DNA from: Verrucomicrobiota bacterium
Lineage (GTDB): Bacteria > Verrucomicrobiota > Verrucomicrobiia > JAWXBN01
Direction: 5' to 3'
DNA length: 44,561 nucleotides
Assembly (NCBI GenBank): GCA_034440155.1
Contig: JAWXBN010000060.1
Location: forward strand, 1 to 44,561
Position numbers and translations under genes: made by a program. Under the pieces are notes generated by a model. It was given only the letters and a program-made list of their open reading frames with translations, made no database searches and had not been told where the DNA came from. Below, piece after piece: positions 20,304 to 43,237 of the stretch (its first letter is position 1; every line of letters begins with the position of its first letter).

Positions 20304-21545
20304 TTAGAGCATCTTTGCAATTTGTTTGAGCGTTCTAACAAAGATATCGACCTCGGTTGTGGTGTTATAGAGGTAGAAGCTCGCCCGGGCGGTGGCTTCG
20401 AGTCCGAAATGGTGCATGAGGGCTTGGTTACAATGGTGCCCGCCGCGCAGGGCAATCCCGTGTGCATCAGCCAAAGTCACGATATCACTGGCATGGGCTT
20501 TGGGGAATACGAAACAAATTGATCCTGCATGGTTTTGTGCCGGGCCCAGAATACGGATATTTTCGATGCCGCGCATTTGATCTAGGGCATAGGCGGTTAA
20601 TTCCAGATCGTGGGTAAAAATCGTTTCCCTCCCGATAGCCTCGATATAATCCACAGCAGCGCCCAGCCCGATAGCTCCCGCGATATCGGGGGTCCCCGCT
20701 TCAAACCTGGCCGGTGCTGATTTATAAGTGCTATGGATGTACTCCACCCGGTCGATCATATTCCCGCCACTTTGATAAGGGGGCATCGAATCGAGGAGGG
20801 CCTTGCGTCCCCAGAGGACACCGATGCCTGTGGGACCGCACATTTTATGCCCACTAAAGACGAGGAAATCGCAGTCGAGATCCTGCACATCCACCGGACA
20901 ATGCCCGATGGACTGGGCAGCGTCGATCATTGACACCGCACCGTAATGGCGGGCGAGGGTGCACATTTGTTTCGCGGGATTAATGGTGCCCAGGGTATTG
21001 GAAATATGGGTGAATGCCAGTAACTTGACTTTCCCGCTGGATAATTTGTTTTCGAGTTCTCCCATGTCGAGGAGACCTTCGTCGCCATTGACCGTGAGGT
21101 AATCAAGAGTGGCTCCGGTGTGTTGCGAAACAATTTGCCACGGCACCATATTACTGTGGTGCTCCATCTGGGTCAGTAGGATGGTGTCCCCGGGTTTGAG
21201 GAATGTGCGGCCCCATGCCTCCGCCAGCAGGTTAATGCCCTCAGTCGTACCGCGGGTGAAAATAATCTCCTCCTCCGAGGTAGCATTGATGAATTTTGTG
21301 ACCTTGAGGCGTGCTTGCTCGAAAGCGGTCGTGGCGCGGTTGCTGAGGTCATGGATGCCCCGGTGGACATTGCTATTGTCCTTCAAGTAAAAGTCGCTGA
21401 TGGCCTGGATGACGGAGACCGGCTTCTGGCTGGTGGCGGCGTTATCGAAATAAATCAAGGGCTGTCCATTGACCTTTTGGTCAAGAACCGGGAAATCTTT
21501 CCGGAGGGTTATTACATCGAGGGGATTAGTAGTGAGAGTGGACAT
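20304..21545 (-). CDS. sufS: SufS cysteine desulfurase
   Basis: PLP-dependent group II cysteine desulfurase (413 aa) that takes sulfur from cysteine for Fe-S assembly. The N-terminal FDNAATSQKPVSVIQAI, the PLP lysine in FSGHKMCGPTGIG and the catalytic cysteine in ALRGGHHCNQALM are intact. RFEAGTPDIAGAIGLGAA is the phosphate-contacting segment. It is the last gene of the minus-strand suf operon and converges on the PP2C gene with a 16-base gap. No SufE or SufU sulfur acceptor is seen here; SufT lies immediately upstream. In contrast to the second desulfurase homologue at 36.2 kb, this one has every key residue. Confidence 0.95.
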   Translation of the reverse strand: MSTLTTNPLDVITLRKDFPVLDQKVNGQPLIYFDNAATSQKPVSVIQAISDFYLKDNSNVHRGIHDLSNRATTAFEQARLKVTKFINATSEEEIIFTRGTTEGINLLAEAWGRTFLKPGDTILLTQMEHHSNMVPWQIVSQHTGATLDYLTVNGDEGLLDMGELENKLSSGKVKLLAFTHISNTLGTINPAKQMCTLARHYGAVSMIDAAQSIGHCPVDVQDLDCDFLVFSGHKMCGPTGIGVLWGRKALLDSMPPYQSGGNMIDRVEYIHSTYKSAPARFEAGTPDIAGAIGLGAAVDYIEAIGRETIFTHDLELTAYALDQMRGIENIRILGPAQNHAGSICFVFPKAHASDIVTLADAHGIALRGGHHCNQALMHHFGLEATARASFYLYNTTTEVDIFVRTLKQIAKML

Positions 21546-21667
21546 ATAATTTCAGGAGATGCTTTCAGTGTGCGGGGCTTTGAGTTTCCCCATTATTGGG
21601 TTGCATCATCATGGCTGTAATATAGGCCAAGAACTTGATTAGGTAAAGTTTACCCACTTAAAAATCC

Positions 21668-22216
21668 CTACAGCAGGCCCATCTGGAGTTTGGCGGCTTC
21701 GCTCATCATGCCTTGGTTCCAGGGTGGATCCCAGACGACCTCGACATTACAGCTTTCGACACCGGGAATGCTTTCGACTTTGCTTTTAGCATCTTCGGCG
21801 ATGACCGGGCCCATGCCGCAACCGGGGGCGGTCAGGGTCATTTTGACATCGACATTGCGTTTGCCATCGGGACTGATCTGGGCGTTACAACTGTAAACCA
21901 GTCCGAGGTCGACGATATTGACCGGGATTTCGGGATCGTAACAAGTCTTGAGCTGGCGCCAGATCATCTCTTCATTAAAATCAGTGTCCTGCGCATTTTG
22001 TGCAGCGAGAGCTGCGGCGGAGATTTCTTTGCCGAGTGCATCAGCATCTCGCGCATCGATCCGGGCGAGGCAACTACGGGACATGACGGTGAAATTCCCG
22101 CCGAGGCGCTGGGTAATGGTTACTGTTTCACCCGAGGTCAGCGTGATTTTGTCGCCCATGGGGATGGCGACGGCTAATACATCCCTCGTTAAAGTCACTG
22201 TCTCATGTTCATTCAT
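21668..22216 (-). CDS. sufT: SufT, DUF59/MIP18-family Fe-S maturation protein
   Basis: Fe-S assembly accessory protein of 182 aa in the SufT form: an N-terminal beta-rich part (VTLTRDVLAVAIPMGDKITL, then TVTITQRLGGNFTV) followed by the MIP18 domain from about residue 85 (YDPEIPVNIVDLGLVYSC, TAPGCGMGPVIAEDA, VWDPPWNQGMMSEAAK). SufT helps target clusters to client proteins. It lies between sufD and sufS in the operon. Its MIP18 part is strongly similar to the free-standing protein at 38.5 kb, so the two are paralogues. Confidence 0.9.
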   Translation of the reverse strand: MNEHETVTLTRDVLAVAIPMGDKITLTSGETVTITQRLGGNFTVMSRSCLARIDARDADALGKEISAAALAAQNAQDTDFNEEMIWRQLKTCYDPEIPVNIVDLGLVYSCNAQISPDGKRNVDVKMTLTAPGCGMGPVIAEDAKSKVESIPGVESCNVEVVWDPPWNQGMMSEAAKLQMGLL

Positions 22217-22284
22217 ATTTTTTTTTGTTTCCTGACAAAATTAATCACTTACGGCGGGTTAGTCCCTCCAAAAAAATCATCTGG

Positions 22285-23637
22285 TCAAATCATACCGGTT
22301 AATTTGCCTTCGACAAGCTTGCTGGCATGCGCACGGAGAGGTTCATTCTCGATACGATCGAGGATCTCTTGGGCAAATGCCTGCGTGAGCATGACCCGCG
22401 CTTTTTGCTCGGCGATGCCCCGGCAACGCAAATACTGGATGGCTTCTTCATTCATTTCACCGACGGTAGCCCCGTGGGTGCATTTGACATCATCGGCATA
22501 AATCTCAAGCTGCGGTTTCGTATTGACCGTGGCGTCCCGCCCCAAGAGGATAGCGCGGTTAGTCTGTTTGGCATCCGTTTTTTGGGCTTCTTGCCGGACA
22601 AAGATTTTGCCGTTAAAGACCCCGCGTGATTTTCCAGCGAGGATACCGTGGTAATATTCATGGCTACCACAATGGGGTTTACGGTGATCGACCAAGGTAT
22701 GATGGTCGCAGAGTTGATCATTTTCCATGGCGTAGATACCGAAAAGCAGGGCGTCGATATTTTTCCCGTTCAGGTGCAAATGGATATTGTGCCGGGAGAG
22801 CTTGGCCCCGATGGCGACCGAGTGGTTCATAAAGCGGCTGTCGGAGGCGAGCTCGGCTTGGATCGTCGCGATGTGGTAACTCTCCATACATTCATCTTGG
22901 AGCTTAATGTGTTCGAGCCGTGCGTTGGATTCCACAAATACCTCAGTGACAGAGTTTTTCAGCGTGGGCATGTTGCAGCCACAGCAAATATGGCTTTCGA
23001 CAATGGTCGCATCACTGCCGCTTTCGGCTACAAACAAATTGCGCGGCTGGATAGCTGTCCCGGTTTCAGTCGTCGTGATAAAGAGGAGATGAATGGGGTT
23101 TTCCACGTGCAAATTGCGCGGGATATGGATCACGATGCCGTCCTGGATGAATGCGGTATTCAGCGCGACGAATCCATTATCCGCGGCCGCGACACTTTTG
23201 CCGACATACTTTTCGAGGAGGGAGGAATGTTCCCTGAGAGCCTCGGCAAAAGAACAAACAATGGCACCGGTGGGTAAATGGCCGGGCTTTGACAAGCGGG
23301 GAGAATATTGTCCGTCGATAAAAACGATCTCATGCGCGCCCATGGCAGTGAGGGAATAACGGGCGAAATCCTCGCCGCGCAAATTGCTCTGGGCCTTGGC
23401 GGTCTGGGGTTTGAATGGCATATCTGCGACTGGGGCGGTATTTGTGTAACGCCATTCCTCGTGTTTCACCGTGGGGAATCCCAGCTCGCTAAAGTGCGCG
23501 ATGCCGGAGCTGCGCAGGGACTTTAACCATTTTGGGGTAGAGTTATCCTGAGAGTTCTCGAATTTCTCGTGTTCCTCGATGAATTGCGCAATCTGGTGGT
23601 TAGCCCCGAGGAAAATATTTTCTATGGATGGGTTCAT
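22285..23637 (-). CDS. sufD: SufD, Fe-S scaffold subunit
   Basis: SufBD-family right-handed beta-helix protein of 450 aa that partners SufB and SufC in the SufBC2D scaffold. The N-terminal helical region carries WRYTNTAPV, typical of SufD. The core ends with the family signature around KTDAKQTNRAILL, then CTHGATVGEMNEEAIQYLRC with the conserved C-terminal cysteine and histidine. It starts six bases downstream of the sufC stop, a tight operon arrangement. Confidence 0.93.
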   Translation of the reverse strand: MNPSIENIFLGANHQIAQFIEEHEKFENSQDNSTPKWLKSLRSSGIAHFSELGFPTVKHEEWRYTNTAPVADMPFKPQTAKAQSNLRGEDFARYSLTAMGAHEIVFIDGQYSPRLSKPGHLPTGAIVCSFAEALREHSSLLEKYVGKSVAAADNGFVALNTAFIQDGIVIHIPRNLHVENPIHLLFITTTETGTAIQPRNLFVAESGSDATIVESHICCGCNMPTLKNSVTEVFVESNARLEHIKLQDECMESYHIATIQAELASDSRFMNHSVAIGAKLSRHNIHLHLNGKNIDALLFGIYAMENDQLCDHHTLVDHRKPHCGSHEYYHGILAGKSRGVFNGKIFVRQEAQKTDAKQTNRAILLGRDATVNTKPQLEIYADDVKCTHGATVGEMNEEAIQYLRCRGIAEQKARVMLTQAFAQEILDRIENEPLRAHASKLVEGKLTGMI

Positions 23638-23643
23638 GGCGGG

Positions 23644-24414
23644 TTAGACTCCGGCGGGTTGGGCGGCGGACTCGATAATCCAGTCATAGCCATCTTTCTC
23701 GAGCTTGAGGGCGAGGGATTTGTCCCCGGTCGAGATGATTTTACCGGCGGAAAGGACATGGACAAAGTCGGGGATGATATAATCAAGCAAGCGTTGGTAG
23801 TGGGTAATGACGACTGTGGCATTATCCGGGCGGTGGAGTTTATTGACCCCTTCTGAGACGACTCGCAGGGCATCGATATCGAGGCCGGAGTCTGTCTCAT
23901 CAAGGATCGCAAGTTTCGGCTCCAGCACGGCCATTTGGAAAATTTCATTCCGTTTCTTTTGGCCCCCGGAGAAACCTTCATTGACGGAACGTTTGAGCAG
24001 GTCAGGGTCGAGATCGACGAGTTTCATTTTCTCGCGGACGTAGGCGAGGAAAGGACCGGCATCCATCTCGGGTTCACCCCGGTACTTACGGATTTCATTA
24101 TAGGCAGAGCGGAGGAAATAAATGTTATTTACCCCTGGAATCTCGATCGGGTATTGGAATGCGAGGAAGAGCCCTTCGCAGGCGCGTCCTTCCGGTGGGA
24201 GGTCGAGGAGGTTTTTGCCGCGGTAAATGACTTCGCCCTGGGTGACCTCAAAAGAGGGATGTCCGGCGAGGACTTGGGAGAGTGTGCTTTTGCCGCTGCC
24301 ATTGGGTCCCATGATGGCGTGGACTTCGCCCTCGTTGACGATGAGGTTGATCCCTTTGAGGATTTCTTTGCCTTCGATTGAGGCGTGCAAATTGCGTATT
24401 TCCAAGAGTGCCAT
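23644..24414 (-). CDS. sufC: SufC, ABC-type ATPase of the SUF scaffold
   Basis: Cytosolic ABC ATPase of 256 aa powering the SufBC2D complex. Walker A GPNGSGKST, the Q-loop in AFQYPIEIPG, the signature FSGGQKKRNEI, Walker B KLAILDETDSGLDIDAL and the switch histidine in VVITHYQRLLDYI are all seen. The DETDSGLD form of Walker B is typical of SufC rather than transporter ATPases. It lies between sufB and sufD. Confidence 0.96.
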   Translation of the reverse strand: MALLEIRNLHASIEGKEILKGINLIVNEGEVHAIMGPNGSGKSTLSQVLAGHPSFEVTQGEVIYRGKNLLDLPPEGRACEGLFLAFQYPIEIPGVNNIYFLRSAYNEIRKYRGEPEMDAGPFLAYVREKMKLVDLDPDLLKRSVNEGFSGGQKKRNEIFQMAVLEPKLAILDETDSGLDIDALRVVSEGVNKLHRPDNATVVITHYQRLLDYIIPDFVHVLSAGKIISTGDKSLALKLEKDGYDWIIESAAQPAGV

Positions 24415-24464
24415 AATAGATTGTTTTCCTTTTTAAATTTAAAAAATTCCGGGGATTGTCCGCC

Positions 24465-25910
24465 TTATCCCACACTGCCCTCGAGGCTGATGCCGAGGAG
24501 TTTTTGGGCTTCGACGGCGAATTCCATCGGGAGCTGCCGGAAGACTTCCTTACAATAACCATTCACGATCATATTCACCGCGTCTTGAGTCGTGAGTCCG
24601 CGTTGGTTCAGGTAAAAAATCTGGTCTTCACCGATTTTGGAGGTGGTCGCCTCATGCTCGACCTGTGCGGTGGGATTTTGTACGTCGATGTATGGAAAGG
24701 TATGGGCACCGCAACGGTCACCGATCAGGAGGGAGTCACACTGGGAGAAATTCCGTGCGCCGTCTGCTCCCTTGAGCACTTTGACCTGCCCACGGTAGCT
24801 ATTCTGTCCACGGCCTGCGGAGATTCCTTTGGAGATGATCGTACTCCGTGTGTTTTTTCCGATATGAATCATTTTTGTGCCGGTATCGGCTTGCTGCATA
24901 TTATTCGTCAATGCGACGGAGTAAAATTCGCCAATGGCATTGTCCCCTTGCAAGATGACACTCGGATATTTCCAGGTGATGGAGGAACCCGTCTCGACTT
25001 GGGTCCAGGAGATTTTGGAGTTCCTCATGCATTTTCCGCGTTTGGTCACGAAATTATAAATGCCTCCCTTACCTTGCTCGTCGCCCGGGTACCAGTTCTG
25101 CACTGTGCTATATTTTATCTCCGCATTATCCATGGCGATGAGCTCGACGACGGCCGCATGGAGCTGGTTCTCGTCGCGCATCGGGGCGGTACAGCCCTCG
25201 AGATAACTGACATAAGCCCCTTCTTCCGCCACGATCAGGGTCCGTTCAAATTGCCCGGTATTTTTGGCATTGATCCGGAAATAGGTCGATAACTCCATCG
25301 GACAACGAACCCCTTTGGGGATAAAGACAAATGAACCGTCGGAATAAACCGCGGAGTTCAGCGCGGCATAGTAGTTATCCGTATAGGGCACCACGGTTCC
25401 CAGATATTTTTTAATCAGGTCGGGATGCTCATGACACGCCTCGGAGAATGAGGAAAAGATCACGCCTTTGTCGGCCAGTTGTTTTTTAAAGGTCGTATGC
25501 ACCGAGACACTATCGAATACCACATCCACGGCGACCCCGGCGAGGCGCTCCTGTTCCTTGAGGGGAATCCCGAGTTTCTTATAAGTTTCGAGGAGTTTCG
25601 GATCGACTTCATCCAGGCTTTTGGGCGCGTCCTTGGCTTGTTTCGGCGCGGAATAATAGATGATGTCCTGATAATTGATCGGGGGGTAAGTAACATTTGG
25701 CCATGCGGGTGGCTCCATCGTGAGCCAGTGGCGGTAAGCCTTCAAACGCCATTGCGTCAGCCAATCGGGTTCATTCTTCTTTTTCGAAATGGCGATGACG
25801 ACATCCTCATTGATCCCCGGCGGCAGGGTATCGGCATCGATCAGGGTTTCAAACCCGTACTTATACTCTTGGGAAACAAATTGCTCAATTGTACTGCTGG
25901 AATCGCTCAT
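24465..25910 (-). CDS. sufB: SufB, Fe-S scaffold subunit
   Basis: Core scaffold of the SUF complex, 481 aa from the ATG at 25910. Typical SufB segments: [20 protein letters not shown] at the N-terminus, [20 protein letters not shown] in the beta-helix, and the C-terminal [20 protein letters not shown]. The ATG at 25910 gives the family N-terminus ([20 protein letters not shown]). A start 23 codons upstream would consume the promoter, so it is rejected. First gene of the operon sufB-C-D-T-S, preceded by a sigma70-like promoter and an IscR-type palindrome. Confidence 0.95.
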
Positions 25911-25968
25911 AAAATCTAGCTTATGGTTAGGCCGCCCGTTTAAAGCGGATAAAATTAATCCTATTCCG

Positions 25969-25996
25969 AATATACTCACTCACAGGGTCTTGTCAA
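25969..25996 (-). promoter_or_regulatory. Sigma70-like promoter of the suf operon
   Basis: On the minus strand a perfect -35 TTGACA (plus-strand 25991-25996) is followed after 16 bases by TATATT (25969-25974). The -10 is about 58 bases before the sufB ATG, leaving a leader of roughly 50 bases. It is the best promoter-like sequence noticed in the window. Confidence 0.75.
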
Positions 25997-35700: not shown

Positions 35701-36141
35701 ATGAAAATAACACAAGCCGTAGAATACGGTATACTCGGAGTCATCTATCTCGCCCGTCAACCCGAAGGGCGATTGGTCATGATCGACGAAATCTGTGAAA
35801 GCGAAGGAGTCCCAAAAAGCTTCCTTGCAAAAATATTCCAGAGTCTGACAAAGTCCGGCATCATTCGTTCCCGGCAGGGAGCAGGTGGTGGTTTTGCACT
35901 CACACGTAAACCTGATGATGTATCAGTCTTGAATGTTATCGAGGCGATCGAAGGCAAAATAGCCCTCCAACGTTGTCTCGAAGATTTTCCTGACTGTCAG
36001 AAATTCGAGTCTTGCGCCCTGTCGGGTGTCTTGGCCGAGGCTCAGGCTGCTGTCGTCGATGTCTTTAACCGCAGGACTCTTGCTGATCTTATCCAGCAAC
36101 GTACTCCTTATGGCAATGACATTTATTCGATCCAGCGTTAA
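35701..36141 (+). CDS. Rrf2/IscR-family transcriptional regulator with three cysteines
   Basis: 146 aa. The winged-helix N-terminus is typical (MKITQAVEYGILGVIYLARQ, then the recognition region VPKSFLAKIFQSLTKSGIIR and the wing RQGAGGGFALTRKPDDVSVL). Cysteines C92, C99 and C105 lie in the loop that binds a [2Fe-2S] cluster in IscR (C92, C98, C104 in E. coli) or a cluster in NsrR/RirA. This predicts a redox- or Fe-S-responsive repressor. It heads an operon with a cysteine desulfurase homologue, Mrp and a MIP18 protein, all Fe-S related. The IscR-type site at sufB is a plausible target. GGAG precedes the ATG. IscR, NsrR or RirA identity cannot be decided. Confidence 0.9.
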   Translation: MKITQAVEYGILGVIYLARQPEGRLVMIDEICESEGVPKSFLAKIFQSLTKSGIIRSRQGAGGGFALTRKPDDVSVLNVIEAIEGKIALQRCLEDFPDCQKFESCALSGVLAEAQAAVVDVFNRRTLADLIQQRTPYGNDIYSIQR

Positions 36142-36178
36142 TTCTAAAGCCGCATTTGTGCAGGAGGAAGAGTGATCA

Positions 36179-37384
36179 ATGACCCCTGCACCGATTTATT
36201 TTGATCATTTATCGTCCACAGAAATTTTGCCCCAGATCCTCACCAGTATGGGGCGTTTTTTTTCTCCCGCATTCTCCAGCCCGTGGAGTCCCCACACAGG
36301 GGGGAATGCCGCCCGGGAAGCTTTGGAAGAAGCCCGTAAACAATTTTGCGCATTAGTCGGTGCAGATGATTCTTATGAGGTGATTTTTACCGGTAACGGT
36401 TCAGAAGCTAATAACCTCGTGATAAAGGGCCGCGCATTTTCTTCTTCGAAAAAGGATGCGTGCCTCGTTTACACCGCCACAGACCATCCTTCGATTATCC
36501 AATCCATGCGTTTTCTTGAAAGTCTCGGATTCCGGACACGCAAATTGCCCGTGGATCCCCAAGGTTTTGTTGATCCGGTTGAATTGCGCCGGATGATTTG
36601 CGCGGACACCGTGCTGGTGGTGACGCATTTGGTTAACCACGACCTAGGCACACTCCAACCGGTCGATGAGCTTGTGCAGATGGCGCATAGTGCTCATGTG
36701 CCAGTTTTAATCGATGCGACTTATGGCGGGGGATGGAGGGATTTGAATCTGGCCGGATGTCCGGCCGATTTTGTCACACTGAGCCCGCATCGTTTCCACG
36801 GGCCAAAAGGTGTCGGGGTCCTCGTCAAAAAGAGGCATATCCCTTTGACCCCTCTTATTCACGGGGGGAATCAAGAGCATGAACTCCGTGCCGGGCACGA
36901 GAATATTCCGGCAATCCACGGGGCGGGCCTAGCGGCGGGATTCATCCGAGATCATCCTGAAAAATTTATCCGTAACCCTCGGGAACTCCAAAAGCTTTTT
37001 CTGGAGCAGATCGCCCCGATCCCGGGAATCAAGTTAAACGGGCCACCGATTGGGGACGATTTGCGCGCGGGTAATTCGCTGAGTCTATCGGTGGCTGGAG
37101 TGGATGCGGAGGAGTTAATACTGGTTTGTGACCGTTTCGGACTCCAAATCGCGGGGGGCAGCGCCTGTGTGAGCCGGACCGAAAAAATCCCGCACACTCT
37201 CCAAGAGATCGGGTTATCCGAGGATTCTGCACGTGGAACGGTATTAATGAGTTTTGGAATCACCAATACACCCGCGCAAATTGCCCCGGCGGCGGCGGTC
37301 TTTGCCAAGGCGGTGGAACGGGTCCGTTCACTTTCCCCGCGTTGGAGAATTTCCGGCGAAGTGAAGTTGCATAATCCCCCGTGA
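36179..37384 (+). CDS. Cysteine desulfurase (NifS/IscS) homologue lacking the PLP lysine; probable pseudoenzyme
   Basis: Class V aminotransferase fold, 401 aa, aligning along its length with IscS. The catalytic-cysteine loop is kept (GGSACVS, C330, equivalent to IscS C328), as are the PLP-stacking histidine region (TATDHPSII) and the Asp in LIDATYGGG. The Schiff-base lysine is replaced: LSPHRFHGPKGVG has R205 where IscS has K206 in SGHKIYGPKG. Other PLP contacts also differ: VNHDLG for VNNEIG, DATY for DATQ, and RAGHEN for RSGTLP. It therefore probably cannot make sulfide from cysteine by the usual route. It sits between an Rrf2 regulator and Mrp, 19 bases before the latter. A sulfur/persulfide acceptor, scaffold or regulatory partner is possible; that is inference. 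AGGAGGAAG precedes the start. Confidence 0.88.
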   Translation: MTPAPIYFDHLSSTEILPQILTSMGRFFSPAFSSPWSPHTGGNAAREALEEARKQFCALVGADDSYEVIFTGNGSEANNLVIKGRAFSSSKKDACLVYTATDHPSIIQSMRFLESLGFRTRKLPVDPQGFVDPVELRRMICADTVLVVTHLVNHDLGTLQPVDELVQMAHSAHVPVLIDATYGGGWRDLNLAGCPADFVTLSPHRFHGPKGVGVLVKKRHIPLTPLIHGGNQEHELRAGHENIPAIHGAGLAAGFIRDHPEKFIRNPRELQKLFLEQIAPIPGIKLNGPPIGDDLRAGNSLSLSVAGVDAEELILVCDRFGLQIAGGSACVSRTEKIPHTLQEIGLSEDSARGTVLMSFGITNTPAQIAPAAAVFAKAVERVRSLSPRWRISGEVKLHNPP

Positions 37385-38506: not shown

Positions 38507-38824
38507 ATGACTAAAAAAGAATCAAAAATCACTGTGGAACAAATTTACACCGCCCTCAAAAATTGTTTTGATCCGGAGATCCCGGTTAATATTGTCGATC
38601 TGGGATTGGTTTATGATGTGGTCTTGGAAGGTAATGATGTCCGGGTAAAAATGTCCCTGACGACTCCCGGTTGTCACATGGGCCCTTCCATCTCCAATGA
38701 CGCGCAATCTAAGGTGATGGCTGTCGAGGGGGTAGAATCCTGCGAAATCGACATCGTCTGGGATCCTGCTTGGAATCAGTCCATGATCACAGCTGACGGC
38801 CGCAAAAAACTCGGGATGGTTTAG
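38507..38824 (+). CDS. MIP18-family (DUF59) Fe-S assembly protein
   Basis: Single-domain MIP18 protein of 105 aa: FDPEIPVNIVDLGLVYDVVL, TTPGCHMGPSISNDAQSKVM and VWDPAWNQSMITADGRKKLG are the characteristic segments, including the conserved cysteine. It is related to the C-terminal domain of SufT in the suf operon; fifteen consecutive residues (DPEIPVNIVDLGLVY) are identical. It completes the Rrf2-desulfurase-like-Mrp set and probably helps Mrp mature client Fe-S proteins. A GGAGC sequence lies upstream at slightly long spacing. Confidence 0.9.
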   Translation: MTKKESKITVEQIYTALKNCFDPEIPVNIVDLGLVYDVVLEGNDVRVKMSLTTPGCHMGPSISNDAQSKVMAVEGVESCEIDIVWDPAWNQSMITADGRKKLGMV

Positions 38825-42736: not shown

Positions 42737-43237
42737 ATGATAAAACTAAATGATAGGAGAGATTTTTCTTTGAATAATATCCAAGCACATAGTTTGAGCG
42801 AAATCAGGAAAGTGGTTCGAAAACTCACAAGTGGACATCATTTGGGGGTACTCAGTTGTGTTGATCCCTTTGGCCGCCCTCATTCATCCTGGATGGGCAC
42901 CGTTTATGCCGAAGATTACCAGACAATCGTCGCTATTTCCTCACCCGAAGGCCGCAAGGTCAAATATATCGAGCAAAATCCACAAGTGGAGTGGATGGTC
43001 GCGGATGAACAATTATTCCACGTCGTTTATTTCAAAGGGGTCGCCCGGATTATGGAAGACGCTGCGGAAATTAAAAAAGCATGGAATGATATTCCTGACA
43101 AAAGCCGCTCTTATTTCCTTCGTTTTCAGGATCGTGGGGTCGGATTCAAGATTATTGAGACAAAAGTTAAAAGTGTCGAATACCGGGTCCCCACGGAAAA
43201 TATCTTTGTAGAGGTTGCGGTTTCTGATCTGGCATGA
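42737..43237 (+). CDS. Pyridoxamine 5'-phosphate oxidase-like split-barrel protein
   Basis: 166 aa, FMN-binding split-barrel fold of the general-stress-protein 26 type: VVRKLTSGHHLGVLSCVDPF, PHSSWMGTVYAED, ISSPEGRKVKYIEQNPQVEW, VYFKGVARIMED. These proteins bind flavin, F420 or haem; which one is not readable. The short length excludes true PdxH. An AGGAGA sequence lies inside the first codons, and an in-frame start closer to the conserved part is possible. Probably co-transcribed with the following gene, 18 bases on. Confidence 0.75.
   Translation: MIKLNDRRDFSLNNIQAHSLSEIRKVVRKLTSGHHLGVLSCVDPFGRPHSSWMGTVYAEDYQTIVAISSPEGRKVKYIEQNPQVEWMVADEQLFHVVYFKGVARIMEDAAEIKKAWNDIPDKSRSYFLRFQDRGVGFKIIETKVKSVEYRVPTENIFVEVAVSDLA

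Follow-up and report, generated by a model that had tools for sequence, protein, structure and literature searches.

The closest described counterpart of the protein examined here is archaeal. The IscS of Archaeoglobus fulgidus, in which the PLP lysine is replaced by Asp, has no desulfurase activity and gives a Cys ligand to a [2Fe-2S] cluster on IscU (PMC7585200, citing Marinoni 2012 and Pagnier 2014), and IscS1 of Methanosarcina acetivorans, where the lysine is also missing, was suggested to act like it (PMC7585200). In E. coli IscS, neither the K206A nor the Q183E variant shows desulfurase activity (PMC9978102). Minimal IscS–IscU pairs have been termed MIS, or MisS–MisU (PMC12442378, PMC12192291), and an earlier study mapped Rrf2 genes in the vicinity of MIS (PMC9973013).

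The window, a stretch of 44,561 nucleotides from a Verrucomicrobiota bacterium, encodes a protein of the same fold, which we refer to as pseudo-IscS (Table 1). Residue equivalences were read from an alignment to E. coli IscS, whose numbering serves as the reference. Lys206 is replaced by Arg205, Asn155 by His154, Gln183 by Tyr182, Thr243 by His240, Thr76 by Ser75 and the substrate-carboxylate Arg354 by Leu356, whilst Cys328 (Cys330), Asp180 (Asp179), His104 (His103), His205 (His204) and Ser203 (Ser202) are kept, as is Trp389. Arg354 of IscS positions the substrate and Thr243 holds the PLP phosphate. A first-pass annotation had already placed R205 at the Schiff-base lysine, quoting VNHD, DATY, RAGH and LSPHRFHGPKG exactly; the changed positions it listed are right, but the loss of R354 (L356) had been overlooked. 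The protein matches Pfam Aminotran_5 and scores far under the NCBIfam cut-offs for both NifS (267.0 bits, equivalog cut-off 530.75) and IscS (215.0 bits, cut-off 643.2). Measured against cysteine desulfurases (EC 2.8.1.7), it has the IscS fold and the loop cysteine and lacks three residues needed for cysteine desulfuration, namely the PLP lysine, Gln183 and Arg354.

A sequencing error at Arg205 was ruled out, as CGN codons are conserved at this position in many genomes, and the residue is not there by chance, since dozens of genera share this Arg and mostly encode it by CGN, two changes from Lys. The suggestion that Lys lies just one step from Arg was rejected for the verrucomicrobial Arg, nearly always CGN, though AGR codons are found in an Acididesulfobacter-type group. 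Nor does a different lysine fill the PLP position: no gaps interrupt the alignment near PHRFHGPKG, and the fold matches run the full length. Retention of C330 and of the overall fold, as first proposed, is borne out by the alignment, by an AlphaFold2 model with the IscS fold (pLDDT 90.2, pTM 0.90), in which the Cys loop 330–333 and the C-terminus are the only stretches under pLDDT 50, and by Foldseek, where the top matches are human NFS1 and A. fulgidus IscS, rank 2 being the A. fulgidus IscS–IscU complex (4eb7, TM 0.89/0.94). The top PDB sequence match, with the window protein as single query, is A. fulgidus IscS2.

Table 1 Features of the pseudo-IscS locus and of the SUF desulfurase in the window
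Feature	Position	Strand	Evidence
SufS, intact desulfurase, end of sufBCD-sufT-sufS cluster (20304-25979)	20304..21545	-	NCBIfam 559.8 bits, cut-off 475
Rrf2-family regulator, Cys92/Cys99/Cys105 (Fe-S type triad)	35701..36141	+	Pfam/NCBIfam
37-bp gap where most relatives have iscU	36142..36178	+	
Pseudo-IscS, IscS/NifS-fold, 401 aa, without PLP lysine, catalytic Gln and substrate Arg	36179..37384	+	
Arg205 codon CGT at Schiff-base lysine position	36791..36793	+	
Cys330 codon, persulfide/ligand cysteine on mobile loop; model confidence low at 330-333	37166..37168	+	
Mrp/ApbC-type P-loop ATPase, CPKC (Cys278/Cys281), sole Mrp in genome	37404..38465	+	Pfam/NCBIfam
MIP18 (FeS_assembly_P / SufT-like) protein	38507..38824	+	Pfam/NCBIfam

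The likeness to A. fulgidus IscS2 (PDB 4eb5, 4eb7 and 4hvk; D199K mutant 4r5f) extends beyond the missing lysine, the retained loop Cys and the fold, as Gln183 and Arg354 are lost there too (to Ala and Leu, the latter as in the window). The archaeal protein differs in carrying Asp where the window has Arg and Asn where the window keeps His205, and it pairs with IscU, whereas the window protein has no IscU and sits in an operon with Rrf2, Mrp and MIP18. M. acetivorans IscS1, likened here by its description, is another archaeal IscS homologue without the catalytic lysine (PMC7585200).

Among 57 genomes of the same class, a homology search recovered a separate group of relatives with 33–42% identity; the alignment places Arg at the lysine position in 14 of its 15 members (the window counted in) and Lys in one (L011). 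A contig scan with the single window protein gave no match, and a degenerate DNA pattern was then used to scan GTDB genomes. The P-H-x-F motif in this pattern biases the sample, and the homology-based group (1 Lys in 15) served as a check. The scan brought in named Verrucomicrobiota (Pedosphaera/Limisphaerales, Methylacidiphilales and others) as well as a second group with Arg, to which Candidatus Acididesulfobacter belongs. Across 68 scored clade loci the PLP-lysine position holds Arg in 65, and Lys, His and Gln once each; homologues in the same operon keep Arg. Gln183 and Arg354 are retained in none of the 68, compared with 70/74 and 70/70 in lysine-bearing relatives, so that the losses of K206, Q183 and R354 coincide across the clade. 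Cys328, by comparison, is retained in every clade row that covers it. The exact motif, searched in 384 genomes of the class, occurs in its Arg form in 37 and in its Lys form in 4, both lower bounds because of variation in the motif. One family, still lacking Gln183 and Arg354, accounts for three of the four Lys-form genomes, and the remaining one carries a canonical IscS.

That family (f11; L011/L040, L204, L206) has a lone Lys in an otherwise dead site. The Gln and His variants, from a LacPavin MAG (L146) and Methylacidiphilales SRB-18 (L062), both adjoin IscU. Four IscS-like proteins from Caldiserica and a related MAG (L102, L103, L150, L157) keep Lys and Arg354, with Gln183 changed to Ile or Leu and Asn155 to His or Gln, and are possibly intermediates.

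In a tree built with the catalytic columns left out, the verrucomicrobial clade was recovered with support of 100/99, and all lysine-less sequences, including A. fulgidus IscS2, lay to one side of a poorly supported branch (59/86). We found no description of the Arg clade in the literature searched, which did not extend to the key MIS paper (Garcia et al. 2022). A lysine-less IscS paired with IscU has already been described in A. fulgidus, and the Arg-bearing bacterial clade is a variant of that kind.

A protein so altered could bind PLP non-covalently, Arg205 and the clade-typical His154 running a different reaction. His104, Asp180, His205 and Thr243, all PLP contacts, are invariant in the IscU-linked members, Asn155 is replaced by His in 52 of the 68 loci, and the K206A variant of E. 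coli IscS retains some PLP binding and a slow reaction with the cofactor (PMC9978102). However, the substrate-carboxylate Arg and Gln183 have gone along with the lysine, the window protein has lost Thr243 as well, and the nearest lysine-less IscS to have been characterised reportedly lacks desulfurase activity (PMC7585200), which together make such an enzyme improbable.

The neighbours named in the first-pass annotation, an Rrf2 regulator with a cysteine triad, Mrp and MIP18, were all recognised by Pfam and NCBIfam, but its proposed conserved order, Rrf2–pseudodesulfurase–Mrp–MIP18, holds in part. Linkage to Rrf2 and Mrp is conserved, whilst tblastn of the loci gave Rrf2–IscU–pseudo-IscS–Mrp as the usual order in the clade, with IscU in between and MIP18 next in only a few. 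IscU adjoins 44 of the 68 loci, Rrf2 29 and Mrp 25. The operon IscU of relatives retains its three Cys, Asp39 and His105, and LPPVK, the HscA-binding motif of E. coli IscU, is present in these proteins (e.g. L039, L042). As relatives carry IscU next to pseudo-IscS, the operon is an Fe-S assembly operon of the ISC/MIS type under an Rrf2 regulator, and the undescribed Fe-S/sulfur control system envisaged at first finds no support. With bacterial ISC (IscR–IscS–IscU) the clade shares an Rrf2 regulator, the IscS fold and, in relatives, an IscU with canonical ligands and LPPVK; it differs in that the operon appears to encode no functional desulfurase and that Mrp and MIP18 follow. With MIS it shares a two-gene IscS/IscU-like unit, sometimes with Rrf2 nearby (PMC12442378, PMC9973013, PMC12192291), although descriptions of MisS make it a cysteine desulfurase, and members of the clade, judged by sequence, cannot be one, and the window lacks the MisU that its relatives have as an IscU-like gene. 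Some 5 kb downstream, at 42737–43237, lies a pyridoxamine-phosphate-oxidase-fold protein, probably unrelated.

Rrf2 was also the supposed partner in the initial proposal of a repurposed fold, of which the persulfide-acceptor or scaffold role fits the data and the sensor role is unsupported. In favour of pseudo-IscS as a dedicated sensor that binds Rrf2 and hands it a cluster or persulfide, Rrf2 adjoins 29 of the 68 loci and nearly always has its three cysteines. Yet Rrf2 genes beside Fe-S assembly genes, including MIS, have been mapped already and read as operon regulators (PMC9973013), IscU stands between Rrf2 and pseudo-IscS in most relatives, and many clade members have no Rrf2 nearby, so that a regulatory partnership is very improbable. 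No convincing operator was found upstream of the window Rrf2.

The NifU_N profile (IscU/SufU) found nothing anywhere in the assembly (2.76 Mb, 97.2% complete), whilst the same search was positive in 12 of 14 control genomes and in 54 of the 57 genomes of the relatives search. With the genome 97% complete an IscU could sit in the missing part, but the window's bacterium appears to lack IscU yet retain pseudo-IscS. Sulfur supply is covered, since the genome holds the SUF genes, including the SufS that had been read as intact at 20.3 kb and scores above its NCBIfam cut-off (Table 1), SufE encoded outside the window, and two Lys-bearing IscS paralogues (L002, L003).

Loss of IscU raises the question of decay. 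The IscU-less members form derived sub-clades, the window's among them (support 98/94), and PLP-phosphate Thr243 is lost in 9 of the 20 IscU-less members with enough flank vs. none of the 44 IscU-linked ones. An association of Thr243 loss with IscU loss (Fisher p = 6e-6) was set aside, as the test ignores kinship and the IscU-less members are clustered. The window protein itself has a long branch (1.4), and this together with its Thr243 loss could be decay. Pseudo-IscS may then be a relic whose partner went with IscU, drifting and expressed only because the operon's regulator and Mrp/MIP18 are still useful; that several IscU-less members have no Rrf2 or Mrp beside them is in keeping with this. 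Against it, the window reading frame and fold are intact, with Cys330, His103, Asp179, His204 and Trp389 retained, and both the IscU-linked and the IscU-less sets show little or no variation at Arg and Cys, the latter set keeping them in 24/24 members across many families. Drift would not preserve them, and we therefore consider a relic unlikely.

We favour, at a probability of roughly 0.6, a catalytically dead IscS-type protein that takes part in Fe-S cluster assembly as a non-enzymatic subunit; the presence of Lys in three genomes of one family (including L011) counts against this reading. Its likeliest role would be to act without catalysis as a scaffold or cysteine-donor subunit that receives sulfur from the intact SufS, with Mrp possibly replacing IscU here. 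By analogy with A. fulgidus IscS, the verrucomicrobial proteins would be non-catalytic IscU partners, the loop Cys330 of the pseudo-IscS dimer serving a nascent cluster as ligand or persulfide carrier, with sulfur supplied by the genome's intact SufS, its probable source, or by the IscS paralogues. The last step of the A. fulgidus mechanism is not directly transferable, because it needs the IscU seemingly missing in this genome. The acceptor would then probably be the adjacent Mrp ATPase with its CxxC, the best candidate partner of the window protein, and MIP18 downstream may handle delivery, whilst Rrf2 most likely merely regulates the operon by Fe-S or iron status.

The window Mrp keeps CPKC, and all other readable operon Mrps (L037–L165) lack CxxC (e.g. 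YFTAPD-GSR, YFLCPGDGKR), a loss unexpected for an Fe-S carrier ATPase. Other IscU-less loci are also without the Mrp CxxC, so the window's CxxC is one case and its retention only suggestive. A more specific proposal, in which a dead IscS dimer and Mrp build or relay clusters in a cell with neither IscU nor SufU, the Mrp CxxC replacing IscU, seems to us doubtful.

Until now, the lysine loss in A. fulgidus IscS has looked like an archaeal oddity. The lysine-less lineage, with three catalytic positions lost together, is widely distributed among the Verrucomicrobiota and is found in Acididesulfobacter-type bacteria too, in most cases next to IscU. This suggests a second role for IscS in cluster assembly, one that needs no enzymatic activity and can outlast catalysis, and the bacterial clade opens the question to tests in bacteria. 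The species of the window goes a step beyond this, in that its pseudo-IscS appears to persist without IscU.
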